Part shown: positions 3,677 to 21,996 of the stretch, one piece after another
Position numbering within the stretch: position 1 is the first letter of the stretch
How the letters are laid out: each line of letters begins with the position of its first letter
Source of the DNA: a virus
Strand: one strand, 5' to 3'
Virus record (IMG/VR): IMGVR_UViG_3300006916_000449
Location: 1-22,222 of that record
Length of the DNA stretch: 22,222 nt
Notes under the pieces: model-generated
What the model saw: the letters and a program-made list of their open reading frames with translations, nothing else
Databases searched by the model: none
Told to the model about the DNA's origin: nothing
Translations under genes and position numbers: made by a program

Positions 3677-4399
3677 ATGCCTTTACCCAAGATTTCGACA
3701 CCGACATATGAGTTGGAATTGCCTTCAAATGGAAAATTAATTAAATATCGTCCATTTCTTGTAAAAGAAGAAAAAATTCTTATCATGGCACTGGAGAGTG
3801 AAGATCTTAAACAAATTTCAAATGCAATTAAAACTGTTATATCAGATTGTATTATTACAAGAGGAATTAAAGTAGATCAGTTATCAACTTTTGATATTGA
3901 ATATTTGTTTTTAAATGTTCGTGCAAAATCCGTAGGAGAATCTGTAGAAGTAAGTGTAACATGTCCAGATGATGGAGAAACACAATTACAAGTTGAAATT
4001 GATATTGATTTAATTAAGGTTCAAAAGAATCCTAATCATAGTAATATTATTAAATTGGATGATAATCTTTCGGTTAAAATGAAATATCCATCTTTAAATC
4101 AATTTGTTGAAAGTAATTTTGAAGTTGATAATAAAAATGAACAAGTTGATAAGTCTATTCAAGTGATAGCATCTTGCATTGGTCAAGTATTTACTGATGA
4201 AGAATCTTGGGATGCTTCTGATTGTAGTAAGAAAGAATTGAATGATTTCATCGAGCAAATGAATACCAAACAATTTAAGAAAATTGAAGAATTCTTTAAC
4301 ACGATGCCAAAATTATCACATACAATTAATGTGAAGAATCCAAAGACAGGTGTGGAGTCAGAAGTTGTATTGGAAGGGTTAGCAAGTTTTTTCAGTTAG
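3677..4399 (+). CDS. 26: gp26-type baseplate hub / tail assembly protein (zero-frame product)
   Basis: The 240-aa protein resembles the T4 baseplate protein gp26 family. It opens with a beta-rich PTYELELPSNGKLIKYRPF and KEEKILIMALES. It continues with a helical stretch and a VEVSVTCPDDGETQLQVEID strand pair, a hallmark I associate with this family. T4 gp26 is 208 aa and is needed for hub assembly. The gene sits directly before the tape-measure-like gene, where tail assembly chaperones lie in many long-tailed phages. Its last codons contain a perfect -1 slippery heptamer, T TTT TTC (4387-4393), just ahead of the TAG stop. A second, longer product (about 301 aa) is therefore expected. No strong ribosome-binding site is visible before the ATG. 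Confidence 0.8.
   Translation: MPLPKISTPTYELELPSNGKLIKYRPFLVKEEKILIMALESEDLKQISNAIKTVISDCIITRGIKVDQLSTFDIEYLFLNVRAKSVGESVEVSVTCPDDGETQLQVEIDIDLIKVQKNPNHSNIIKLDDNLSVKMKYPSLNQFVESNFEVDNKNEQVDKSIQVIASCIGQVFTDEESWDASDCSKKELNDFIEQMNTKQFKKIEEFFNTMPKLSHTINVKNPKTGVESEVVLEGLASFFS
4372..4399 (+). promoter_or_regulatory. Programmed -1 ribosomal frameshift site
   Basis: The zero-frame codons AGT TTT TTC AGT TAG contain the canonical X XXY YYZ heptamer T TTT TTC at 4387-4393. A Shine-Dalgarno-like GGAAGGG (4372-4378) ends 8 bases upstream, similar in placement to the stimulator of dnaX frameshifting. The zero-frame stop lies one codon after the heptamer. Slipping back one base continues at CAG (4393-4395) into an open frame of 62 codons. 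Only a weak downstream stem is visible (GCTC with GAGT), so the upstream element and the stop codon are the main candidate stimulators. Confidence 0.8.
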
Positions 4400-4581: not shown

Positions 4582-6340
4582 TAGTCAAAGTTTTACGGCA
4601 CCTACTTTAGATAAAAAACCAAAGTTGGGGAAGAAAATGATTTCTTCTTCAGTTTTTCGTGGTGCCTTTAAATCTATTGGAAAATCGACTACTATCAAAA
4701 TTCCTAAAGGAATGCAAATAGGGGCAAGTAAGTCTTATGTTGATCCAAGTTATTTAAGAAAAGAAGAAAGCACGCCAATTGAACAAACATTAGTAGAAAC
4801 AAACAATATTCTTATAGAAATACAAAATCAGTTAGCAACTGATTTTGCTTATAGGATTGCAAAAGAGAAAGAAGATATACAAAAAATAAAAATTACATCT
4901 GATAAGGAAAAAAAGAGTAGGGCAGAAGCAGGTGTAGAAAGTGTAAAAAAAATTGGTGGTTTTGTTAAAAATCAAGTTGATAAAGTTACTACTCCTGTAA
5001 AAGGATTTTTTCAAAAAATACTTGACTTTTTTGGTGCCATTATTACTGGATTTGTAGTTAATAAGGCGATTGATTGGTTAACAAAACCAGGTAATGCTGA
5101 AAAAATAGCGGGGATATTTACTTTTATTGGGAAACATTGGAAACCAATTCTTGCTGTTATTGGCGGTTTTCTTTTAACTAATGTTGTATTAAAAATTTAT
5201 CGATTATATAAACTTATCCGTGGAGCACTGAGACTTATTGGTATTGGTAGACGTGGTGCTGGTGCTGGTGCTGGTGATGCTATAAGGAGAGGTGGTTTAA
5301 TTAGAAATGCTGCCGGTGGTAGAAGAGGTGTTAATGTTGAGATGGAAAGAATTACCAGAGCAAAACCTGGTTCTGGTGGACTACTTCATGAGAGAGTAGA
5401 TGTATATAAGAGAACTAAAAATCCAGTAGCAAAGGCAGTTCAAAAAGCAGAAGTATTATCAAAGTTAGCTGGTAAAAAGGTAGTAAAAGCACTTGGTGCA
5501 AAAGGTCTCATGAAATTTTTGAGACCAGTATTTAAAAGAGTACCTGTATTTGGAGCACTAATTGATTTTGCCGTGTCTCTTGCTCTTGGAGAGCCAATAG
5601 GTAGGGCAGCAGCAAAGTCGGTTGGTATGTTGCTTGGTAGTGCTTTAGGAACATTAATTCCAATTCCTGGTGTTGGAACATTTGCTGGGGGTTTACTTGG
5701 TGACTTTGTTGGTGGTAAAATTTACGATGCAATTGTTGGAGAAAAACAGGAAGATCCTTTAAAAATGAATAGAGGTGGTATTGTTCCTGGACCCAATATT
5801 AATAAGGACATTGTGCCAATACTTGCTACTCCTGGAGAGGCTGTTGTCCCTAAAAAAGAAACAGCAAGATTTTCGGGATTTTTATCTGATATTATTAGTA
5901 ATGGTGGAGAATTATTTGAGAAAATGTTTCTCTCATTGAGAAAACAAGAATATAATAATAATATATTTAAAGAAGCGAATGAAAAATTTGAAGAATCTAT
6001 AGAAGTGCTTTCCAAGTACTTTAAAAAAGAAACATTAAAAGCGCTTGATCCCAACTTATATAATAAATTATATGGTGCCATTGGAGGACCACGAGATTCA
6101 ATGGCAAATAAATCTTTGAATCCTGTGAAGAAAAATACTTCAAACATGTCAATGAGATCTATGAATAGGTCTCCATCGATTACAATGTTGCCTCCGATAA
6201 GTGCTGCCACTAATTTATCTGCTTCTAAAGTAAATTCAACACCCTCTGGTGGAGATTCGATAATTGCACTTGATGCAGAGGATAATGATAATTTTTATGT
6301 TTCATACTACACTGCATCTTCTCTTGGATTGGGAGTGTAA
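4571..6340 (+). CDS. Tape-measure-like tail protein
   Basis: The 589-aa protein is almost the same length as T4 tape measure gp29 (590 aa). It starts with a charged coiled-coil region (about 70-125). Hydrophobic helices follow: FFGAIITGFVVNKAIDWL near 155, WKPILAVIGGFLLTNVVLKI near 192, and a Gly/Ala-rich stretch before residue 395. Residues 399-430 carry GGIVPGPNINKDIVPILATP then GEAVVPKKE, a motif common near the C-terminus of phage tape measures. It directly follows the frameshifted chaperone-like gene, as expected. The start is ambiguous. GTG 4571 overlaps the preceding stop and has no close ribosome-binding site; ATG 4637 follows GGGGAAG by three bases and would give 567 aa. I kept GTG because the intervening codons look protein-like. 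Confidence 0.75.
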   Translation: MVFSSQSFTAPTLDKKPKLGKKMISSSVFRGAFKSIGKSTTIKIPKGMQIGASKSYVDPSYLRKEESTPIEQTLVETNNILIEIQNQLATDFAYRIAKEKEDIQKIKITSDKEKKSRAEAGVESVKKIGGFVKNQVDKVTTPVKGFFQKILDFFGAIITGFVVNKAIDWLTKPGNAEKIAGIFTFIGKHWKPILAVIGGFLLTNVVLKIYRLYKLIRGALRLIGIGRRGAGAGAGDAIRRGGLIRNAAGGRRGVNVEMERITRAKPGSGGLLHERVDVYKRTKNPVAKAVQKAEVLSKLAGKKVVKALGAKGLMKFLRPVFKRVPVFGALIDFAVSLALGEPIGRAAAKSVGMLLGSALGTLIPIPGVGTFAGGLLGDFVGGKIYDAIVGEKQEDPLKMNRGGIVPGPNINKDIVPILATPGEAVVPKKETARFSGFLSDIISNGGELFEKMFLSLRKQEYNNNIFKEANEKFEESIEVLSKYFKKETLKALDPNLYNKLYGAIGGPRDSMANKSLNPVKKNTSNMSMRSMNRSPSITMLPPISAATNLSASKVNSTPSGGDSIIALDAEDNDNFYVSYYTASSLGLGV

Positions 6341-6343
6341 TAA

Positions 6344-7855
6344 ATGGAAAGCGTCGAGAATTTAAAACTTAATGTTAGTAATATAAAAAGTGTATTGACT
6401 ACATCAAATAAAAATTTGAAACAGTTACAAATTAAAAAGACAAGTATATTAAGGAAACAAATACAAGGCGAAAAAAGATTTGAAAGAGAGAAAAAAATAG
6501 AGACCCCTAGAATTCCTGGATCCGAACTTGCCAAAGGAATTGTAAGAAAAATTGCAAGTCCTGTTATGGGAGTATTTGATAGAATAATGGGATTTTTCAG
6601 TGCTATATTACTTGGATTTGTAGTTAATAATTTGCCAAAAATAATTGCAGAGTTGACTCCTATTTTTGAAACTATGAAACCAATATATGAAGGTTTTATG
6701 AAAGGATTGGGATTTGTGATAAATGGAATAGGATTTTTGTATAATTCTGTTGCGCCATTATTTTTTAATGAAAATGAAGCACGAAATAATATTAAAACTG
6801 CAGAAGATACACTCAAATTAATTGATAAGGATTTAGATGAAGGTTTTGAATTGTCAAAAGATAATGATAATACTGAATCTGAGACAACTCAAACTCAAGA
6901 AGTAAATAATTATACGGATCCTTCTACGCCTGTCATTCAACAACAAACTCAAGTAAAACCGGAAATACAAAAAAGAAATACTGGTGGTTTAGTAAACAAA
7001 AGACAAAATGCGAATCTTCCACCAAGAAGAAATAATTATGAAAATGCAAAAACAAATCCTTTAAGGTTATTTGGAAAGGTAACAGAGCAAAACAGCGAAA
7101 ATGTAAATCTATTTGAAAAAAATAATGATAAATTAGAAGAAATTGCAAAATTATTAAAATCATCAGAAAGGAAAAAATCTATTACTACTAATGATAATAA
7201 ACCGGCAACTGATAATAAAGTTGTAATTAGTGATGGTAAAATTACCGGACAAATTGTTGGAAGAGTTGGGCATAGTGGGTATACGATCCCAGAAGGTCCA
7301 GAGGGTTCTCACATTCACATTGAAACTGGAAGGGGGGAAGGAGGAGCGGGAGGAGAGATTCCTTCATCAGTTTTGAGTAATATTATTGTTGGTGGTAAAC
7401 CATTGTCTGATTGGCCTCAAACTTCAACAATTGGTGATGGTAGAGGGCACCGTGGATTGGATTATGGTATTCCGAAGGGGACACCAATTACTCTTAAAGG
7501 GGGATTGAAACTTGTTGATTATGATACGGTTAGAGATCCAAGTGGATATGGAAATAATATAGTTATTGTGGATAAATATGGAAATTATTATTTAATTGCT
7601 CACTTATCCAGTGGACCAGAGAAATCTAAAGATGGTGAAGGTGGGCAGTTAAATAATAGTATAACATCTAGACAAATAATTCCTTTAAGTGACGAAATTA
7701 AGAAACAAATTATTATAGTTCCTGTAGAAAAGTTAGTGCCTATTGAAACTCCAGTTCCAGTTACTGGCAATTCTACAAAGGTCTATAGACCTGGTGGAGG
7801 AAAAGATTATGGTGGACGACCTTTAAATCCCTGGCAAACGAGAGGACCTCAATAA
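6344..7855 (+). CDS. Tape-measure-like protein with a permuted M23 metallopeptidase domain
   Basis: The 503-aa protein starts with a coiled coil (1-45). Hydrophobic helices follow (FFSAILLGFVVNNL near 84, FVINGIGFLYNSVAP near 125) that mirror the preceding protein, then a low-complexity charged linker (150-295). Residues 298-424 hold all M23 (LytM-type) metallopeptidase motifs: H323 and H325 in GSHIHIE, H369 and D373 in HRGLDYG, and H420 in LIAHLS. In known M23 enzymes the order is HxxxD, AHLS, HxH; here HxH comes first, so the domain looks circularly permuted. The expected activity is zinc-dependent cutting of peptidoglycan cross-bridge peptides, presumably during DNA injection. It lies three bases after the tape-measure-like gene and shares one base with the gp27-like gene. 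Confidence 0.75.
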   Translation: MESVENLKLNVSNIKSVLTTSNKNLKQLQIKKTSILRKQIQGEKRFEREKKIETPRIPGSELAKGIVRKIASPVMGVFDRIMGFFSAILLGFVVNNLPKIIAELTPIFETMKPIYEGFMKGLGFVINGIGFLYNSVAPLFFNENEARNNIKTAEDTLKLIDKDLDEGFELSKDNDNTESETTQTQEVNNYTDPSTPVIQQQTQVKPEIQKRNTGGLVNKRQNANLPPRRNNYENAKTNPLRLFGKVTEQNSENVNLFEKNNDKLEEIAKLLKSSERKKSITTNDNKPATDNKVVISDGKITGQIVGRVGHSGYTIPEGPEGSHIHIETGRGEGGAGGEIPSSVLSNIIVGGKPLSDWPQTSTIGDGRGHRGLDYGIPKGTPITLKGGLKLVDYDTVRDPSGYGNNIVIVDKYGNYYLIAHLSSGPEKSKDGEGGQLNNSITSRQIIPLSDEIKKQIIIVPVEKLVPIETPVPVTGNSTKVYRPGGGKDYGGRPLNPWQTRGPQ

Positions 7856-9171
7856 TGAATGCAGCACAAGCAAGTATATTTGAAGAATTTATAATTACAT
7901 CTGATGACGGAAGTAATTCTGTAAATCTTTATGATGGTCAGATAAGAATTATTAGTTTTGATTACTTTGAATCTATATTATCACCGTGCATTACTGGCAC
8001 AATTATAATTTCTAGTGGATCTGATGCTGCTGTATCGAGGGAAGATCCCCAAAATAGAGTAGGAAGTATATTATCGCATTTACCTCTTCGTGCAGGATCA
8101 ATAATATCGACAAAAATACGCACAAAAAATGGAGTATTGAATTTTTCTGGAGATGATTATAAAGTTTTATATGTGACAAAGGTTGTTCCTCTAATCCAAG
8201 ATTCTAATTCAGAAACAATATCTATAAAGTTTACATCTAAAATTGGATGGTTAAATGAAACTACCAGAATTACACGATCATTTAATGGAAAAATTACCAA
8301 ATCTGTAGAATCTATATTAACAAAAGAATTGGGTATAAAATCTAATAAAATTTTTATTGAAGAAGCAATCAATAGTCTCACATTTACTGGAATGAGAAAG
8401 AGACCATTTGATTTATTAATAGGACTTTTATTAAAACAATCTATACCCCCCAATACAGTAAATCCTGGTTATTTTTGTTATGAAACAAAGAGTGGATTTA
8501 ATTATGTTTCTATTGATACTTTGATAAATCGAGAGGAATTTAAAATTCCTTATGAATATAATGGCAAAAATATATCATCTTTTGAAACTAAAGATGACAG
8601 TGCTGATTTTAAGGTAGCAACATTTTCGACAGAAAAAGATCAAGATTTGTTGATGCAAATTAGATCTGGAATGTATGCTACAAAAAATTTATTTTTCAAT
8701 CCACTAACTTTTAAATTTACCGAAATTGACATATCTGTGATAACAAATTCAAAGTTTTCTTCATTGGGTAAAAAACAAAAACTTCCAAGAATTTTAGATC
8801 AAGATTTCAATGAGGGGAAAAAATATCATCGAGTTCAGTCTGCTATCCTAGATATAGGAAGTAATACAGAAGAAAAAACTCAAAATAATAATCCAGAACT
8901 TTACTATGCAGCAGGAACTACTAGATATAATGCATTATTTTCTCAAATTCATAATGTAACAATTCCATCAAATATTTTACTTGAAGCTGGAGATTCGATT
9001 ATTTTAAATATTGAAAGTATATCTAATGATAAGGTGCAAGGTGTTGATCAAGTTAAAAGTGGTAAATATATAATTAGGGGAATAAGGCATCATTTTACTC
9101 CTAAAGTATCTACTACTGGATTAAAACTTATTCGCGATTCTTATGGATTACATTTTAGTAAGAGCAAATAA
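7855..9171 (+). CDS. 27: Baseplate hub subunit, gp27-like
   Basis: The 438-aa protein lies between the tape-measure pair and the gp5-type OB gene, the place of gp27. Its sequence suits the family. An N-terminal beta domain includes LYDGQIRIISFDYFESILSP and CITGTIIISS. A middle region has SVESILTKELG and RPFDLLIGLLL, followed by GYFCYETKSGFNYVSIDTL (about residue 203). The C-terminal ASSEMBLY-type beta strands include GDSIILNIESIS and YIIRGIRHHFTP. gp27 forms the trimeric torus at the centre of the baseplate that binds gp5 below and the tube above. T4 gp27 is 391 aa. A GAGAGG ribosome-binding site lies nine bases before the ATG. Both ends overlap neighbours by one base (TAATG), implying coupled translation with gp5. 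Confidence 0.75.
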   Translation: MNAAQASIFEEFIITSDDGSNSVNLYDGQIRIISFDYFESILSPCITGTIIISSGSDAAVSREDPQNRVGSILSHLPLRAGSIISTKIRTKNGVLNFSGDDYKVLYVTKVVPLIQDSNSETISIKFTSKIGWLNETTRITRSFNGKITKSVESILTKELGIKSNKIFIEEAINSLTFTGMRKRPFDLLIGLLLKQSIPPNTVNPGYFCYETKSGFNYVSIDTLINREEFKIPYEYNGKNISSFETKDDSADFKVATFSTEKDQDLLMQIRSGMYATKNLFFNPLTFKFTEIDISVITNSKFSSLGKKQKLPRILDQDFNEGKKYHRVQSAILDIGSNTEEKTQNNNPELYYAAGTTRYNALFSQIHNVTIPSNILLEAGDSIILNIESISNDKVQGVDQVKSGKYIIRGIRHHFTPKVSTTGLKLIRDSYGLHFSKSK

Positions 9172-9683
9172 TGGAAGGACTAAATTCGGCACAATTTAAT
9201 TTTTATGGTTTGGGGACAAATGAGTGGATAGGTATGATATTGCCCTTTGAATCCCAAAAAGATCAATCTACGGGAAAGAAAGGATTTGGTTTTCGTTATC
9301 GAGTGGCTATTATGGGTTATCATCCACTTGATAATAGTATAACTGATGAAGAAATTACTTATGCCATAACTGGATTCTCACCTGCTGATGGCGGCGGCGG
9401 TGGATCGTGTTATAAAACATCTAAATTGACTCAAGGAGATGTTGTTTTGGGTAAATTTTTAGATGGTGATAATAAACAATTGCCAATTATATTGCATGTT
9501 TTATGTAGAACGTCTGATATACAATATGGATATGGATCTGGTAGATTTGATCCAAAAACTGGATTTGTTGGAAGTAGAAAAAAGACATCATTAACAAAAA
9601 ATCAAGAAACATGTGAACAAAAAGGAATATGCACGCCAAGACTAATACCTGGGAATGGGAAACAAGGTAGAACATCTCCATAA
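9171..9683 (+). CDS. 5: gp5-type OB-fold hub protein without lysozyme domain
   Basis: The 170-aa protein corresponds to the N-terminal OB domain of T4 gp5 only. About residues 15-112 form the OB-like region: EWIGMILPFE, RYRVAIMGYHP, a Gly-run loop (GGGGGS at 74-79), then LTQGDVVLGKFLDGDNKQLP and IILHVL. T4 gp5 (575 aa) continues with a lysozyme domain and a triple-stranded beta-helix. Here the remaining ~58 residues are a polar tail with two cysteines (QETCEQKGICTP), and no lysozyme sequence follows. The protein should plug the gp27 torus and anchor the spike. Its coupling to the gp27-like gene through TAATG supports a stoichiometric complex. Confidence 0.8.
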   Translation: MEGLNSAQFNFYGLGTNEWIGMILPFESQKDQSTGKKGFGFRYRVAIMGYHPLDNSITDEEITYAITGFSPADGGGGGSCYKTSKLTQGDVVLGKFLDGDNKQLPIILHVLCRTSDIQYGYGSGRFDPKTGFVGSRKKTSLTKNQETCEQKGICTPRLIPGNGKQGRTSP

Positions 9684-9699: not shown

Positions 9700-11190
9700 A
9701 TGTCAGTTTGTGCAGATCCTATCAGTAATACATCTGGTCATGTAGTAATTCTTCCAGATCCTTGTAAAGATAATACCTTTGCGAAGGCAGAAGCATATCT
9801 GGAAAACTTTTTTGCTTTGGTAACAAAACCACTTGATTCATCCTCAAGTTTAGATCAAGAATTGAAAAAAACCGTGAAACTTCTTTCTATTGGTATGAAA
9901 GGTTTTGTAAATTCTGTTGTGGGAAGATTTCAAGATGAATTGATTGAAAGAATAAAAGGTGGACTTGCAGGACTGGAAAATGCAGTTAGATCTTCATATA
10001 AAGGAAATGAATTATTCAAAGCTCTTGATGAATTAGCAAAAAAACAAGGCGCTCAAATTGATCCAGTTGATAATCTGTTTAAGGCACTTGCTTGTTTGGC
10101 AAATAAGGTTACGGATGCCGCAGAAAAAATATTCACTGATTTGCTATCACAAGCAGTAAAAAATGTATTGAATGTCCCTATTTGTGCAGTTGAGCAAATA
10201 TTGGGTGCATTTACTAATAAGATGATAGATATCATTGAGAGCACCGTTTCACCAATATTGGAACCGATTAAGAATGCATTAGAATTTGTTTTTGATGTAA
10301 GAGATTTTCTTGTTGGTGTAGTGAAAACATTGAGAAAGGTTGAAAATCTTTTAAATTGTAATGAGAAGAAAAAGTGTCCTCCATCTACAAAATATAAAAT
10401 CAATCAAGGATTGTTGAGAGATAGGGGAGAAGGAGAGCAGAAAGACGCCTTTGATAGAATATTTGCAAAAGGAGCACTGTCAAGAGGTGCTGCAAATCTT
10501 GCAAATGATTTTGAAAATCAATATGGATCATGGTCTATATTTGGCGAGACCCTAGAAAATGCTGATCCAAATTCGGGTTGTTATACTGGAAATGTTGTCA
10601 GTTGTGGCACACCAAATGTAGAATTTTTTGGTGGTGATGGTGCAGGAGCATTTGGAAGAGTAATACTTGGCAATATTATTAATGAAGTTGATAGTGAAGG
10701 TGTAATTGATTCTGCACAAAGGACTGCAAGTATTGTTGGTGTAGAAATTCAAGATCCCGGAAGTGGATATACAACTCCACCAATTGTATCTTTTACTGAT
10801 GCATGTGATAAGGGATATGGTGCATATGGCAGAGCAAACATAGATACAAATCCTAGTTCTCCAACTTATGGTCAAGTTACTTCTATAAGTATTATTAGTA
10901 AAGGAGAAAATTACCCAACGGAAGGTCTTATTGAAGATCCATTATACATTGAAGATATTGTAATTGAAAATCCCGGATCTGGATACTCTGAAGGTGATTC
11001 TGCTCAAGGGATTAAATTAACAATTCGTGATGGTCAAATTGTTGACACTGAAATTGAAAACTTAGGATACAATGGATTGCCTGACCTAAATATCAACAGT
11101 AACACTGGGTTTGGAGCTGTGCTAAGACCAATAATGGCAGTTGTTCCGCCACAGAGAGAAGTTATTCAAGTTATAGATTGTGTGAGGTAA
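9700..11190 (+). CDS. Virion structural protein with PGSGY repeats
   Basis: The 496-aa protein has two halves. Residues 1 to about 215 are helical and amphipathic with several cysteines. From about 310 onward the protein is beta-rich and carries repeats of the form V-x-I-x-(D/N)-PGSGY: P353-Y357 (DPGSGYTTPPIV) and P425-Y429 (NPGSGYSEGD). Two weaker copies (SKGENYPTEG, ENLGYNGLPD) lie among them. Such repeats are common in cyanomyovirus structural proteins. I do not recognise a T4 counterpart. It lies between the gp5 OB gene and the spike-like gene, that is, inside the stretch that in T4 is one gp5 gene. A hub- or spike-associated role is plausible but unproven. The next gene starts four bases after its stop codon. 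Confidence 0.7.
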   Translation: MSVCADPISNTSGHVVILPDPCKDNTFAKAEAYLENFFALVTKPLDSSSSLDQELKKTVKLLSIGMKGFVNSVVGRFQDELIERIKGGLAGLENAVRSSYKGNELFKALDELAKKQGAQIDPVDNLFKALACLANKVTDAAEKIFTDLLSQAVKNVLNVPICAVEQILGAFTNKMIDIIESTVSPILEPIKNALEFVFDVRDFLVGVVKTLRKVENLLNCNEKKKCPPSTKYKINQGLLRDRGEGEQKDAFDRIFAKGALSRGAANLANDFENQYGSWSIFGETLENADPNSGCYTGNVVSCGTPNVEFFGGDGAGAFGRVILGNIINEVDSEGVIDSAQRTASIVGVEIQDPGSGYTTPPIVSFTDACDKGYGAYGRANIDTNPSSPTYGQVTSISIISKGENYPTEGLIEDPLYIEDIVIENPGSGYSEGDSAQGIKLTIRDGQIVDTEIENLGYNGLPDLNINSNTGFGAVLRPIMAVVPPQREVIQVIDCVR

Positions 11191-15465: not shown

Positions 15466-18400
15466 ATGGCAAAATATTTAAGCGGAAGAGTAAAAAGAAA
15501 AGAACAATCCAAAGTAGCAATTTCTACGGATCGCTACCGTTATCTTGGACTTAATGAAACTGAACCAAATTTAGGTGATCCTCTTTCCGGGACATTTCAA
15601 GACACTCCACCTGCTGGTACAAGATATCAAATAGTTTCCGTTGAAGGATATCCTGGAGAAAGATATTGGATTCCTGTTGAGGGTGGAATCATTCCAGGAT
15701 CTATTACTGTCTATGATGAATCTACTAAACTTGTTGGTAATATTAGTAGTATAACTCAACTCAATTTTATTGGTGCTGCTATAACTGCAACATCAGATTC
15801 ATTTAAAGAAACAACATTAACTTTAAGTGGCAATCATAGTTTTTCTGTTGGTTTAGGTATTACACAGGGTAACAATAATGTTACTGGTTTTGTAAAATAT
15901 TCTACAACAACAGTTGGATATGTTACTGTCACTAATGTTGAGGGATCGTTTGCTCAAAATGCAAGTGATGAAATTTATGAGGATGGAGTAACCACTGGAT
16001 TAACCGTAGATTCTTTATCTTCGATTATTGAGACTGGAGTTAAAGCAGACATAACTGTTTCTCCACAATTCTTTTCTGAAAATAAAGAATTAATATTTAA
16101 TGATAATGGGGAATTTAATGGTGCTAGTGTTTATTGGGATAAGTCTAATACACGATTAGGTATTAATAGTAGTGATCCTGCACATACTTTAGATGTTACA
16201 GGAGATATTGATGTAAGTGGTAGCATTAAAGTTGGAGCAACTATCTATGATAGTGATGGTGATCCAGGAACTGACGGGCAAATTCTTGCGAAGGGAGCAG
16301 GAAATCCTGGGACAATAGATTGGGTTCGTTTGGAATCTATTATTACTGGTGCTGGTGGAACAATTGGTAATATTCAGTTTCATGGCACTACTGGATTGGT
16401 TCAGGGTGATGATGAATTAAATTTCAATCCTTATAATGAGTTTATTGGTATTGGTACTAATGATCCGGCACAGAAGTTTCAAGTTGGAGTAGATGGAAAA
16501 AGATATACAACAAAGAAATTAACTTTAGATAGTGCTATAGGTGATAATTATAGTGCAGGAGATTTAGTTCAATTGAGAACGGCAGCTTCTCCATTTGGAC
16601 TGCAGGATATATTTGGAACTCTTGTATATGATGTACCTTCTGCTGGAACAGCACTAACGGTTAGAAATAGTAATTACGAAACAAAAGGTACTCAATGGAG
16701 TTCTTTTACTGGTAATGGGTATAGAATATACTTTAATAACACTGTTTTAGCTACTGGCAGGTATATAACTTCTGTTGGAAATGATGCCACCATACCAGAA
16801 ACTACCTACGAGGGAGATGATGTCTTTGTAGTTACTAGCACTGGTGATGTTGGTATTGGCACAGTAAATCCAAGGACAAAGAGAGATTCTACGACAGTTA
16901 ATTTAGATGTTGCCGGTGATGTTTTATTTAAAGGTGATAATAACTATGATCTTCACTGGGACAAGAGTGCTTATAGTTTAATACTCGATGATAATGCCAA
17001 GTTTGCCGCAGGCACTGACTCTGATTTAGAAATATATCATAATGGCACTACTGGATATATTGAAAACAACACCGGACATTTTTATATTAGAAATGCTGGG
17101 TCAAATATTAATTCAAACATTTATATTCAGGCAAGAAGTGGAGAAAATAGTATTATTTGTAACGATGATGCTGGCATAGATCTTTATTATAATAATAGTA
17201 GAAAAGCATATACAGATATCAGTGGTTTTCGTATAGATGGTAGATTATATGTTGATCACAGCACATCAGAGTTTCATGGAGATGTAATATTTGATGGAAA
17301 TACTGCTGGTCGTGATATTTACTTTGATGTGAGTGAAAACTCTTTATATGCTTATGATAATGCAGAATTTCGTGTAGGGACAACTGCCGACCTACGAATT
17401 TACCATGATTCTACACTCACCAAAACATATGTTGGGTTAGATTCTAGTGGTGGTAAGACATTAGACTTCGTTTCTTTTGATAATAATCTTGGCATAAGCA
17501 CTGCCATGAGAGTGACACATGTTAATAGTGGAGATAATTATAATACTTATGTAAATCTATACTATAATGGAGTTGAAAAATTAGAAGTAACGGAAAATGG
17601 TATTGATGTAACGGGTCATGTAGAAACCGATACATTAAATGTTTCTTCTGCATCAACTATTTCTAATATTAAGATTGGTGGTCTTGGTGGAAATCTTTCT
17701 AATACAATAGATACAACTTCTGGAAATTTAATTATTAATGCTCAAGGTGGTTCTAATACAATTGTTACTGATAGCGAACTGCAAATTAATAGTACTGAAC
17801 CAACCACTGGTAATAATGATGGTGCTTTAATTGTTGCTGGTGGTGTTCATATCAGAAGTGATTTGATATTATGTAATGATCCTGATATCGTGGATACTAT
17901 TGACCCCGTTAAAGTTGGTATTGCAACAAGAACTCCTGTTGATAGACTTCAAATAGGATCACGGAACGAATTTATACCAGTTGTAAATACAAATACTGGA
18001 GATCTTGCTGCTCCTGTTGGTGGTTTGGGTACCAATGAAATTACTGGAATCACAATATCTGGATCTGGTATTGTATTGGGACAAGAAGTAAAATCTGGAT
18101 TCCATACAGTTGGCACGAAGATTTCAAATATTGTTGGAAATACAATTATTGTTGATACTTATGCAACTAATACTGTAGCACAAACTAATGTTCCTATTAC
18201 TTTTGGTATAAGAAATGATAGTGCTGTTATTGCTATTGGACAAACCGGTTCTGTTGGAATAGGCACTACAAGTGCCGAAGCAAAATTAGATGTTCGTGGT
18301 AATTTACAAGTTACTGGAATTGCATCAGTCAGTGAAACTATAAAAGTTGGTGCGGCTGTAACGATTTCATCAAGTGGAGATACATTCATATCTGGTATCA

Positions 18401-21400
18401 CATCTGTAGGCACTGGTGTGACCATTACTCCATCTAATGGAGGTATTGCCGTCACCGGAATTATAACAGCAACTGGTGGATTTATTGGCACAGTTAATAG
18501 TAGTGATATTGTTGGTGATATAACAGCAACTAATATTAATGTTACCGAAGAAAGTACTGATGCCGAGTGTAATATAGTTTTTGTAACCGCATCTAATGGA
18601 ATTCTTCCACCAAAAACTAATGCCAACTTAACTTATGATTCAAGTACTGGAAAATTGCAATCTGCTAGTTTTGAGGGTGATGGATCTTTACTGACTGGTG
18701 TTATTGGTGTAGGCACTGGCGTTGAACTTCAATCAAATGGAACTTCGGTTGGAGCTGCAGCAACAATTAATTTTAGTGGAGGATTTAATGTATTACTTTC
18801 TACTTCAAGTGGTGTTGCGACAGTAACTCCAACAGCAACGGATAGAAGTGTTTTCTCTCATTATTCTGATTATGCAAGTCATAGTGAAACATCAAATTAT
18901 GCATACGGTATTGTAGGTATTGCAAACACTTCTTACAATGAAGTAGGAATACTTACTGCAAATTCATCTTCTGCAGATAGTTTTGGATGGTCAGTAGCAA
19001 CCAGTGCTGATGGCAAGACTATTGTTGTTGGAGATCGCTTTGGTGATGGTAATGCAACAGATTCAGGCGCAGTTTATGTCTTTGATCGTGAAGGAAATAC
19101 CTATAGTCAAGTAGGTGTCTTGACAGGTTCTTATTCTACCGATAATTATGATAATTTTGGACAAGCAGTAGCAACCAGTGCCGATGGTAAGACCATTGTT
19201 GTTGGTGCTTTTGATGATGAAACTTCTGGCACTACTGGTTATGGTCTTGTTTATGTTTATGATCGTGTTGGAAATGACTTTAATGAAGTAGCAATTTTAA
19301 CTGGTTCTTATGCCACCGAATCTTTTGATTACTTTGGATGGTCAGTAGCAACCAGTGCCGATGGTAATACTATTATTGTTGGTGCTTATGGTGATGAAAC
19401 TTCTGGCACTACTGGTCATGGTCTTGTTTATGTTTATGATCGTGTTGGAAATGACTTTAATGAAGTAGCAATTTTAACAGCATCTGATCAAGGTGCAGGT
19501 GATTCTTTTGGACAGGATGTTGCATGTAGTGTTGATGGTAAGACTATTGTTGTTGGTGCTGGTGGTCATGACGATCTTTCGGGACATACATCTTCAGGCG
19601 CAGTTTATGTCTTTGATCGTGTTGGAGATGATTTTAATGAAGTAGGAATTTTAACAGCATTTGACAGTAATAATTACTACTTTTTTGGAAATGAAGTAGC
19701 AACTAGTGCTGATGGCAAAACTATTTTTGTTGGTAGAAGTTCTATTTCTGCTAATCAACCTGGTGCTGTTTATGTTTATGATCGTGTTGAAAATGACTTT
19801 AATCAAGTAGGAATTTTAACAGGTTTTTATGCCGATGATGATGATCAATTTGGGATCTCTGTGGCATGTAGTGCCGATGGTAAGACGATTATTGTAGGAG
19901 CTCAAAGTGATGAGTATCCTGGTTCTGGCAATGGTTCTGGTCTCGTTTATGTTTTTAATCGTCAGGGAAACAACTTTAATGAAGTAGGAATTCTCACCGG
20001 ATCTTATGCTTCTAATACTGGTGATTATTTTGGACATTCTGTAGCAACCAGTGCCGATGGTAAGACCATTATCGTTGGTGCTTACAATGATGAGATTAAT
20101 AGTGAACAAGGTCTTGTTTATGTTTTCGATCAAAATGTAAATACAAAATCACTTTTAAGGACTATAGATGAAAAAAATATAATTATAGAATCTAATTTAA
20201 CAGTAACGGGTGATATTAAAGGAACTGCAGATAATGCCGATAGAAGTATTTTCTCTTCCTATTCCGATTATGCAAGTCATAGTGAAACATCAAATGGATC
20301 TTATAATCTTGTAGGTATTGGATCAACTTATATTGAAGTAGGTGCTATAGAACTTGATAATCCTAACTCTAACGATGAATTTGGACACACAGTAGCAACC
20401 AGTGCTGATGGTAAGACCATTATCGTTGGTGCTCCCGATCATGATACTAATTCATTATCAAATGTAGGTGCAGTTTATGTCTTTGATCGTGAAGGAAATA
20501 CTTATAGTCAAGTAGGTTTCTTTACTGGTTCTTATGCTACCAGTAGCAGCGATTATTTTGGACAAGAAATTGCATGTAGTGCCGATGGTAAAACCATAGT
20601 TGTTGGCAACCAATATAGTGAATTACCAGGATCGGAGTCGAATAGTGGACTTGTTTATGTCTTTGATCGTGTTGGAAATGATTTTAATGAAGTCGGTATC
20701 TTAACCGGATCTTATGCTTCTCAAAATAGTGATAATTTTGGATCGTCAGTAGCAACCAGTGCCGATGGTAAGACTATTGTTGTTGGTGCTCTTCTGGATG
20801 AGAAGGGTGTTGATAGTGTTGATGGCGGAGGTGTAGTTTATGTCTTTGATCGTGTTGGAAATGATTTTAATGAAGTAGGTATTCTAACAGTATCAAGTGG
20901 TGCATTTGTTTTTGATTATTTTGGATATTCTGTAGCAACCAGTGCCGATGGTAAGACTATTGCTGTTGGTGCGTATGGTGATGAAAGTGGCGTAACAGTA
21001 ACTGATGTAGGTGCAATTTATGTCTTTGATCGTGTTGGAAATGATTTTAATCAAGTAGGTATTCTAACAGCATCTTACGATACCGTGCGCTATGACTTTG
21101 GACGCGAAGTAGCAATCAGTGCCGATGGTAAGACTATTATTGGTAGTGCTTATTATGAGTCTGGGACCGGTGATCCTACTAAAGGCACTGTTCATGTCTT
21201 TGATCGTGTTGGAAATGATTTTAATGAAGTAGGTATTCTAACAGCAGGAACTGAATATGCTGATAATCATGATTATTTTGGATGGTCAGTTGCATGTAGT
21301 GCCGATGGTAAGACTATTTTTGTTGGTGCTCCCAATGATGAATATTCATCTACTTCTACTACTGGCATTGTTCATGTTTTTAATCGTCAGGGAAATAACT

Positions 21401-21996
21401 TTAATAAAGTAGGTATTATAACCGGTTCTTATGCTACTAATCTTGCTGATAAATTTGGATACGCAGTGGCATGTAGTGCAGATGGTAAGTCTGTTATTGC
21501 TTCTGCTCTCAATGATGAGATTGGAGGTACTAGTGCTGCCGGTGTCGTTTATGTCTTCGATCAAACAACAGTTGCCAGAGATGCAATTACGGCAACAGAT
21601 ACTGGTGTTTTAATTACCGGAGATCTCAATGTAACTGGTGATATTACTGCATTCTATACTTCTGATGAAAGATTAAAGGATAATATCACTCCAATTGATG
21701 ATCCTTTGGCAAAGGTAATATCAATTAGTGGTAACACATTCGATTGGAATCAAAATTCCAATAAGTCTGGTCATGATGTTGGTGTTATTGCACAAGAAAT
21801 AAAAGAAATTCTGCCAGAAGCTGTTACTGAAAGAGATAATGGGTATCTTGCGGTTGATTATTATAAAGTAATTCCTCTCCTAATTGAGGCAATCAAGGAA
21901 CTTTCTGAAGATAGAAATATCATAACTTCTAAAAACGGAGTTAAGTATCGTTTCGTTGTTGACGATGATGGAAACCTATCAACTGAGAAGGTCTAG
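15466..21996 (+). CDS. Giant tail fibre with two seven-bladed propellers and S74 chaperone
   Basis: The 2176-aa protein begins with a probable virion-attachment region (1 to about 110). Fibre segments with GI(G/N)xxxP motifs follow (LGINSSDPAH near 232, IGIGTNDPAQ near 328, VGIGTVNPRT near 462), then a beta-rich shaft (480-800). Residues 1126-1556 and 1592-2033 are two copies of a seven-repeat FG-GAP-like array: (Y/S)FG-x-x-VA(T/C)SADGKTI-x-VGA...VYVFDR-x-GN-x-FNEVGIL, period about 59 residues. The C-terminus is an S74 intramolecular chaperone starting at SDERLKDN with catalytic S2066 and K2071, then GHDVGVIAQEIKEILPEAV. Autocleavage would remove the last ~111 residues after trimerisation. 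The propellers sit next to the distal end and are the likely receptor-binding parts. Confidence 0.85.
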   Translation: MAKYLSGRVKRKEQSKVAISTDRYRYLGLNETEPNLGDPLSGTFQDTPPAGTRYQIVSVEGYPGERYWIPVEGGIIPGSITVYDESTKLVGNISSITQLNFIGAAITATSDSFKETTLTLSGNHSFSVGLGITQGNNNVTGFVKYSTTTVGYVTVTNVEGSFAQNASDEIYEDGVTTGLTVDSLSSIIETGVKADITVSPQFFSENKELIFNDNGEFNGASVYWDKSNTRLGINSSDPAHTLDVTGDIDVSGSIKVGATIYDSDGDPGTDGQILAKGAGNPGTIDWVRLESIITGAGGTIGNIQFHGTTGLVQGDDELNFNPYNEFIGIGTNDPAQKFQVGVDGKRYTTKKLTLDSAIGDNYSAGDLVQLRTAASPFGLQDIFGTLVYDVPSAGTALTVRNSNYETKGTQWSSFTGNGYRIYFNNTVLATGRYITSVGNDATIPETTYEGDDVFVVTSTGDVGIGTVNPRTKRDSTTVNLDVAGDVLFKGDNNYDLHWDKSAYSLILDDNAKFAAGTDSDLEIYHNGTTGYIENNTGHFYIRNAGSNINSNIYIQARSGENSIICNDDAGIDLYYNNSRKAYTDISGFRIDGRLYVDHSTSEFHGDVIFDGNTAGRDIYFDVSENSLYAYDNAEFRVGTTADLRIYHDSTLTKTYVGLDSSGGKTLDFVSFDNNLGISTAMRVTHVNSGDNYNTYVNLYYNGVEKLEVTENGIDVTGHVETDTLNVSSASTISNIKIGGLGGNLSNTIDTTSGNLIINAQGGSNTIVTDSELQINSTEPTTGNNDGALIVAGGVHIRSDLILCNDPDIVDTIDPVKVGIATRTPVDRLQIGSRNEFIPVVNTNTGDLAAPVGGLGTNEITGITISGSGIVLGQEVKSGFHTVGTKISNIVGNTIIVDTYATNTVAQTNVPITFGIRNDSAVIAIGQTGSVGIGTTSAEAKLDVRGNLQVTGIASVSETIKVGAAVTISSSGDTFISGITSVGTGVTITPSNGGIAVTGIITATGGFIGTVNSSDIVGDITATNINVTEESTDAECNIVFVTASNGILPPKTNANLTYDSSTGKLQSASFEGDGSLLTGVIGVGTGVELQSNGTSVGAAATINFSGGFNVLLSTSSGVATVTPTATDRSVFSHYSDYASHSETSNYAYGIVGIANTSYNEVGILTANSSSADSFGWSVATSADGKTIVVGDRFGDGNATDSGAVYVFDREGNTYSQVGVLTGSYSTDNYDNFGQAVATSADGKTIVVGAFDDETSGTTGYGLVYVYDRVGNDFNEVAILTGSYATESFDYFGWSVATSADGNTIIVGAYGDETSGTTGHGLVYVYDRVGNDFNEVAILTASDQGAGDSFGQDVACSVDGKTIVVGAGGHDDLSGHTSSGAVYVFDRVGDDFNEVGILTAFDSNNYYFFGNEVATSADGKTIFVGRSSISANQPGAVYVYDRVENDFNQVGILTGFYADDDDQFGISVACSADGKTIIVGAQSDEYPGSGNGSGLVYVFNRQGNNFNEVGILTGSYASNTGDYFGHSVATSADGKTIIVGAYNDEINSEQGLVYVFDQNVNTKSLLRTIDEKNIIIESNLTVTGDIKGTADNADRSIFSSYSDYASHSETSNGSYNLVGIGSTYIEVGAIELDNPNSNDEFGHTVATSADGKTIIVGAPDHDTNSLSNVGAVYVFDREGNTYSQVGFFTGSYATSSSDYFGQEIACSADGKTIVVGNQYSELPGSESNSGLVYVFDRVGNDFNEVGILTGSYASQNSDNFGSSVATSADGKTIVVGALLDEKGVDSVDGGGVVYVFDRVGNDFNEVGILTVSSGAFVFDYFGYSVATSADGKTIAVGAYGDESGVTVTDVGAIYVFDRVGNDFNQVGILTASYDTVRYDFGREVAISADGKTIIGSAYYESGTGDPTKGTVHVFDRVGNDFNEVGILTAGTEYADNHDYFGWSVACSADGKTIFVGAPNDEYSSTSTTGIVHVFNRQGNNFNKVGIITGSYATNLADKFGYAVACSADGKSVIASALNDEIGGTSAAGVVYVFDQTTVARDAITATDTGVLITGDLNVTGDITAFYTSDERLKDNITPIDDPLAKVISISGNTFDWNQNSNKSGHDVGVIAQEIKEILPEAVTERDNGYLAVDYYKVIPLLIEAIKELSEDRNIITSKNGVKYRFVVDDDGNLSTEKV
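18841..20133 (+). repeat. First propeller unit (seven FG-GAP-like blades)
   Basis: The unit begins with the linker DRSVFSHYSDYASHSETSN and a lone NEVGIL strand, then seven blades. Their FG pairs start at 18982, 19156, 19333, 19507, 19684, 19849 and 20029 (spacings 58, 59, 58, 59, 55, 60 codons). It ends at YVFDQ without the final NEVGIL strand. The N-terminal strand would therefore complete blade seven, as in Velcro-closed propellers. Confidence 0.9.
20239..21564 (+). repeat. Second propeller unit (seven FG-GAP-like blades)
   Basis: It starts with nearly the same linker (DRSIFSSYSDYASHSETSN), 1398 bases (466 codons) after the first copy. Its FG pairs start at 20380, 20557, 20737, 20920, 21097, 21277 and 21454. 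It also ends at YVFDQ. Blade 1 in both units carries REGNTYSQVG and blade 6 in both carries NRQGNNFN, so the whole unit was duplicated. Both units are followed by a LxVTGDI strand that leads to the next module. Confidence 0.9.

Follow-up and report, generated by a model that had tools for sequence, protein, structure and literature searches.

The 22,222-base virus record that we analyzed (the window), of the T4-like cyanomyovirus kind, contains a 503-aa ORF that very probably carries a circularly permuted M23 (LytM/lysostaphin-type) metallopeptidase domain, this being the best explanation of the observations as a whole. A segment homologous to the C-terminal half of normal M23 domains (half A) precedes a segment homologous to their N-terminal half (half B), several phage groups share this order, and the ORF is flanked by genes for tail tube-like, gp26-like, gp27-like, and gp5-like proteins (Pfam and PHROG; Table 1). 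As 14 IMG/VR contigs encode the 503-aa protein at 100% identity, it is not the product of misassembly in a single record.

Table 1. Coordinates of the ORF with the probable permuted M23 domain, its parts, and neighboring genes in the window
Feature	Position	Strand	Basis
gp26/baseplate hub-like protein	3677..4399	+	PF12322, E 6e-76; PHROG
Upstream predicted virion protein, 589 aa	4571..6340	+	
Probable permuted-M23 ORF, 503 aa, predicted virion protein, directly upstream of gp27	6344..7855	+	
N-terminal part: hydrophobic segment (residues about 70-140), then low-complexity linker	6344..7231	+	read from sequence
Half A, ancestral C-terminal half of M23 (GQIVGRVGHSG...GSHIHIE)	7232..7327	+	
HIH: H323, predicted water-activating His; H325, predicted zinc ligand	7310..7318	+	analogy with M23 review
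Linker, residues 329-365, joining ancestral C- and N-termini; GRGEGGAGGEIPSSVLSNIIVGGKPLSDWPQTSTIGD	7328..7438	+	
Half B, ancestral N-terminal half of M23 (HRGLDYGIPKGTPI...GYGNNIVIVDKYGNYYLIAHLS)	7439..7615	+	
HRGLD: H369 and D373, predicted zinc ligands	7448..7462	+	
HLS: H420, predicted second catalytic histidine	7601..7609	+	
gp27-like baseplate hub/tail protein	7855..9171	+	phrog_350, E 1.2e-72
gp5-like baseplate hub, N-terminal part	9171..9683	+	phrog_1922, profile 16-147
gp5-like baseplate hub, remaining part	9700..11190	+	phrog_1922, profile 204-651

Motif order and homology of the two halves

Direct reading of the codons places H323 at 7310, H325 at 7316, H369 at 7448, D373 at 7460, and H420 at 7601, confirming the order HIH, HRGLD, AHLS of the original prediction; its claim that all zinc ligands and the catalytic His are kept also holds, all five residues being present in the window. 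HIH, HRGLD, and HLS occur once each in the 503-aa ORF and in that order, there is no second HxH after HLS in this ORF, and none of 200,000 shuffled versions of its protein gave the ordered pattern. According to the M23 review, enzymes of the family bind zinc through both named residues of H(x)nD and through the second His of HxH, a role in activating water is proposed for the first HxH histidine together with another His, and the catalytic His lies about 30 residues ahead of HxH (PMC9662197). The window has the HxxxD zinc motif (H369-RGL-D373) and an HxH with the second His in the zinc-ligand position (H323-I-H325), but its linear order is HxH - HxxxD - H instead of HxxxD - H - HxH, and H420 comes 95 residues after H325. 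The Gly-rich linker of the original prediction does join the halves, with limits at residues of about 329-365 rather than 328-365, and a "VGGKPLS"-like piece of it recurs in alignments of several permuted relatives.

We propose that an M23 domain was duplicated in tandem and that the outer halves were then lost. This would have moved the ancestral C-terminal half, with its hairpin and HxH strand, to the front and left the ancestral N-terminal half (HxxxD ... HLS) last, with the former C- and N-termini bridged by a linker of about 37 residues and the new termini placed in the segment after HLS. Within a single chain, H325, H369, and D373 are predicted to hold zinc and H323 and H420 to activate water.

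Pfam recognizes half B alone in the window protein (residues 368-423, profile positions 2-54 of 96) and its score of 22.5 bits does not reach the M23 gathering score of 28.7. Among seven relatives scanned, S-TIM5 (36.6), S-TIM54 (49.1), and the Moraxella protein (33.3) pass that score, the Acinetobacter protein (21.0) and L031, an IMG/VR relative (23.9), stay below it, and S-EIVl and S-CBP1 have no Pfam M23 match. The best Pfam stretch of S-TIM5 is the C-half, which lies ahead of the rest (residues 17-51, profile 45-79). A phmmer search of the PDB matched the window protein to 5kqb in two swapped pieces, query 365-386 to chain 26-46 and query 295-354 to chain 86-142, both weak at 8.0 and 2.2 bits, respectively.

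For a more direct comparison, we built HMM profiles from 54 distinct normal-order M23 domains and scored full proteins against the two halves, the single domain, and a doubled profile in which the normal domain is written twice (junction 120|121). The window scored 24.3 bits on the N-half (residues 364-422) and 8.0 bits on the C-half (E 0.39, residues 293-327; best shuffle 5.4), so that half A of the window is by itself weakly supported and owes its significance to the family. The window matched the doubled profile in a single stretch that spans the junction (hmm 77-197, residues 292-423) and scored 27.6 bits versus 21.9 on the single profile, the best of 2,600 shuffled sequences reaching 5.3 and 5.5, respectively. 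The corresponding doubled and single scores were 21.8 and 14.5 for L031, 19.4 and 10.4 for S-TIM5, 46.4 and 20.2 for S-TIM54, 69.9 and 59.7 for Acinetobacter, and 67.2 and 55.5 for Moraxella. Seven of the nine permuted proteins (the window, L031, S-TIM5, S-TIM61, S-TIM54, Acinetobacter, and Moraxella) thus crossed the junction in HMMER, representing six independent cases as S-TIM5 and S-TIM61 are alike; S-EIVl and S-CBP1 gave no alignment across it, their first half having diverged too far from that profile. Of the normal-order controls, S-SRP01 showed no material gain (102.5 doubled versus 101.0 single), and S-PM2, S-RIM44, and S-SRM01 scored lower on the doubled profile.

Profile-profile comparison with hhalign agrees with the original prediction that half A corresponds to the C-terminal and half B to the N-terminal part of M23. 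Against normal M23, half A of four HxH members aligned to template positions 84-115 of 122 with probability 96.7 and half B to positions 2-79 of 122 with probability 97.7, and the whole domain of the HxH members scored 110.5 on the doubled profile versus 69.6 on the single one. Half A of Acinetobacter plus Moraxella reached probability 95.2; taken alone, half A was not significant for the S-EIVl type (34.3) and the S-CBP1 type (46.2). The S-EIVl type nevertheless crosses the doubled junction in hhalign (102-170; 100.1 versus 90.1), unlike the S-CBP1 type. A profile built from eight permuted domains found 31 solved sequences at E <= 1; the three alignments shown are to M23 chains, each of which matches in two segments whose order is swapped, as in 3slu, where profile positions 51-128 match chain 221-304 and positions 6-32 then match chain 308-334. 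With the halves matching opposite ends of normal M23 profiles and the order kept across phage groups, the claim of circular permutation is supported, and neither of the two outcomes that the original prediction named as speaking against it was encountered.

Permuted relatives and the state of their active sites

The full-length window protein had no match among named phages at E 1e-5, and relatives were therefore reached via the domain alone and via gp27. Domains sharing 30-42% identity with that of the window retain the permuted order. The complete HxH-type active site is found in the window, L031, S-TIM5, S-TIM61, and S-TIM54, S-TIM5 and S-TIM61 being identical over the aligned domain; in our alignment, HxH is present in all five members of this type and Asp in both HLD rows. 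L031 is 30% identical to the window protein overall and 43% within the domain; it retains the five active-site residues in the same order, and its neighboring genes are homologous to those of the window and arranged alike. Scanning IMG/VR with the domain of S-TIM5 or of S-TIM54 brought up no relatives, and a scan with the alignment of the window, L031, S-TIM5, and S-TIM61 gave 17 loci: 14 copies of the window, one in the record of L031 (L134), one fragment matching L031 as far as the fragment extends (L135), and one normal-order protein (L136).

In other relatives (the S-EIVl, Acinetobacter, and Moraxella types), the sequence HLD puts Asp in the place of the zinc-ligand His of HxH. The Acinetobacter type comprises tape-measure proteins of Vieuvirus phages from 24 phage records and all of the best 80 of 142 IMG/VR loci (49 distinct segments). 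"Tape-measure-like", as the original prediction called the window protein, is literally true of these relatives (TIGR02675) and unproven for the window protein itself. Six Moraxella phage records matched, and Mcat20, the sequence read, has HLD. In Mcat18, Mcat21, and Mcat22, the domain match spans two annotated tail genes, suggesting that the gene may be split or frameshifted. The S-EIVl type is a stand-alone 248-aa protein (L046:3980-4726), annotated "peptidase M23 family", with 69 IMG/VR loci (L051-L117 among them), of which 46 pass and 23 fail a strict motif-order filter; the 46 comprise 30 distinct segments, and HLD replaces HxH in all 30. NCBIfam has no match for either the S-EIVl or the window protein. 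In an alignment of 25 rows of HLD-type sequences (22 S-EIVl-type and 3 Acinetobacter-type), five positions never vary: H and D in HLD, H and D in HxxxD, and the histidine of LH.

The S-CBP1 type (S-CBP1, DSL-LC07, P60, and 76 IMG/VR loci with 56 distinct segments) goes further: HLD is found in 56/56 segments, and Ser replaces the HxxxD histidine in all 54 that reach that site. To judge from these residues, the S-CBP1/P60 type looks like a degenerate permuted M23. Podovirus internal virion proteins (L045:415-3378, L377:370-3372, and L217-L292) end in this apparently degenerate domain, and in S-CBP1, a Pfam glucosaminidase domain lies ahead of it.

These substitutions are what could be expected if the domains were broken halves of former tandem M23 domains, retained as structural filler with no active site, the S-CBP1/P60 type having lost the HxxxD histidine as well. 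We nevertheless consider this unlikely, as the five active-site residues are intact in the window, L031, S-TIM5, S-TIM61, and S-TIM54 at 34-45% identity to the window domain, and the catalytic positions of the HLD types are invariant in the 25 rows. That the window domain would be enzymatically active, as the original prediction expects, is plausible.

In cellular genomes, the permuted form was found in Acinetobacter only, among the matches listed and the genomes sampled. A search of bacterial-genome contigs gave at least 447 confirmed stretches, of which 80 loci were kept; seven of them match the full domain, all in Acinetobacter (L293-L299, presumed prophages), and the motif-order filter found the permuted order in none of L300-L372. 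In 274 genomes from the class of an Acinetobacter genome, an even draw from a larger group, there was no match at 1e-22 except that genome itself. The plasmid collection gave 16 matching records, the 11 with >=80% coverage being all from Acinetobacter.

The permuted domains could form one phage-borne superfamily that arose by a single tandem duplication and fusion of M23 halves, spread among myo-, sipho-, and podoviruses as a virion-borne wall hydrolase, and in the larger groups found here exchanged the zinc His of HxH for Asp, giving an H/D/D metal site, a reading that we regard as possible but doubtful. In a tree of the shared half (32 rows, 69 columns; the Moraxella row has 46 aa), five label changes between permuted and normal were needed. 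A single permuted clade was not rejected with all 13 permuted rows (AU p 0.323) or with the 11 rows excluding S-CBP1 types (AU p 0.266). In the literature searched, we found no description of an H/D/D metal site in M23.

Predicted structures, gene context, and likely function

AlphaFold modeled the window domain with moderate confidence using 22 aligned sequences (pLDDT 66.5, pTM 0.64). Ten-residue blocks of the 164-residue segment scored 75-94 over positions 41-110 and 82-84 over 121-140, and those of the hairpin before HIH about 37-60. The model of the S-EIVl type is a confident single domain containing both halves (pLDDT 93.9, pTM 0.88). In VIA, its residues 46-144 match lysostaphin 252-336 (Z 4.0, 2.7 A, 72 residues, 19% identity). 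The lysostaphin HxH motif is at positions 360/362, and the match ends before it, as permutation predicts; yet a Z of 4 is low, and other folds score equally, the match being one of three rows at Z 4.0-4.4 together with LecB (4.4) and thrombocorticin (4.0). The matched stretch includes His329, the role of which is given in a passage of the M23 review (PMC9662197). Foldseek found no match in the PDB at E <= 0.001 for either model, and VIA with the window model returned no M23 among the best 50 of 88 chains at Z >= 2, the top hit being Vav1 (Z 4.0). A sequential aligner may miss a permuted domain, and such a miss is no evidence for permutation. Among predicted viral proteins, Foldseek gave one match at E <= 0.001, a 1,191-residue protein aligned over 148 columns (TM 0.65, 4.3 A, E 2.6e-6).

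Known phages have oligomeric baseplate-hub and tape-measure proteins, and half A of one chain could complete half B of the next in a domain-swapped assembly, pairing in cis and in trans being inseparable by sequence alone. We find this improbable: the single-chain fold predicted for the S-EIVl type makes within-chain pairing possible, and the distances from the end of HxH or HLD to the HxxxD histidine, 38 residues in S-TIM54, 44 in the window, and 68 in L051, look long enough to span one domain.

A wall-hydrolase domain is encoded directly upstream of gp27 in 7 of the 10 cyanomyoviruses examined, a set that leaves out the upstream gene of MH319754 (L039). The domain in this slot is a normal M23 in S-PM2, S-RIM44, and Sf-FP1, a diverged normal M23 in S-SRM01, Phage_lysozyme plus M23 in ACG-2014f, Phage_lysozyme2 in S-SKS1, and VanY in DSL-LC03; the slot proteins of P-SSM2, Bellamy, and SynMITS9220M01 have no Pfam domain at E 0.01. 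The normal-order M23 of S-SRM01 (L038:4082-5992) appears to be without the HxxxD histidine. The original prediction had reasoned that homologs with a full normal M23 domain could show HIH to be unrelated; such homologs do occupy the slot, yet HIH is not thereby unrelated, because half A aligns to the HxH segment of normal M23 domains. The idea that half B alone is M23 and HIH a chance motif in an unrelated linker, which the Pfam match to half B alone and the poor score of the window's own half A might suggest, is already disfavored and highly improbable given the hhalign match of half A to the M23 C-half, the leading C-half of S-TIM5, the good conservation of half A in L031, and the failure of shuffling to yield the pattern.

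The gene order gp26-like, two large ORFs, gp27, gp5 seen in the window (PHROG/Pfam) is also annotated in S-SRM01 and P-SSM2, which additionally carry a small gp51 gene. Of 333 named records with gp27 relatives <60% identical, 319 are named Synechococcus, Prochlorococcus, or cyanophage. In PHROG, the N-terminal part of the 503-aa protein weakly matches three families whose function is unknown (phrog_35997, 35029, and 3405). A short stretch, 39% identical over 57 aa, occurs in both the 589-aa and the 503-aa ORF upstream of gp27 (4901-5068 and 6464-6634, the latter being residues 41-97 of the 503-aa ORF), a hint of an old duplication. The gp5-like hub is divided between two ORFs that lie 16 bases apart and differ in frame; at this place, L031 has a single 645-aa ORF, and P-SSM2 and S-SRM01 have one annotated gene. 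The first of the two ORFs has no Pfam match, and neither has a Pfam lysozyme match. Farther along, at 15466-21996, the window encodes a 2,176-aa tail-fiber-like protein that has 11 stretches of FG-GAP_2 and ends in a Peptidase_S74 chaperone domain.

The best reading of the window ORF is a virion murein endopeptidase built on a permuted M23 fold and predicted to be active. Because of the motif, fold, and context, the domain would most likely be virion-borne and cleave the stem peptides of peptidoglycan during DNA entry.

Comparison with known systems

M23 is a well-studied family of cell-wall hydrolases, and a permuted form is easily overlooked, as Pfam catches half of the window domain and Foldseek returns no M23 structure. 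Most records label the permuted proteins hypothetical, structural, or tape measure, and recognizing the permuted M23 would allow candidate virion lysins to be annotated in several phage groups. The relatives also offer natural experiments on why phages shifted the termini of a tail-embedded hydrolase and on an Asp-for-His change in a predicted zinc site. We found no description of a permuted M23 domain in the full-text literature searched, mostly without subscription papers, and the main text of the M23 review contains no word beginning with "permut" (PMC9662197). PMC12667903 mentions permuted endopeptidases of the kind treated in its reference 35, a paper on NlpC/P60, PMC12419801 and PMC12067865 concern other folds, and PMC5513430 applies the phrase to genomes.

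A precedent for permutation in a cell-wall hydrolase superfamily exists in the circularly permuted NlpC/P60 enzymes of the YaeF/LRAT type, described in PMC6403190. These have a cysteine peptidase fold unrelated to M23. The virion-associated M23 lysins phi29 gp13, Tal2009, and CwlP have the normal motif order. The job proposed for them in the M23 review, local wall digestion, is the one that we suggest for the window protein (PMC9662197). The slot proteins S-PM2p208, S-RIM44 W270710_012, SfFP1_14, and ACG-2014f Syn7803US40_11 resemble the window in having an M23 module directly upstream of gp27, but differ in their HxGxD ... H ... HLHFE order and their length of 653-749 aa. With M23/LytM as a whole (PF01551; lysostaphin, LytM, and MepM/ShyA), the window protein shares the same motifs, half-by-half similarity, and a predicted beta-rich fold; it differs in its sub-gathering Pfam score and in having HxH first and HxxxD and HLS second.
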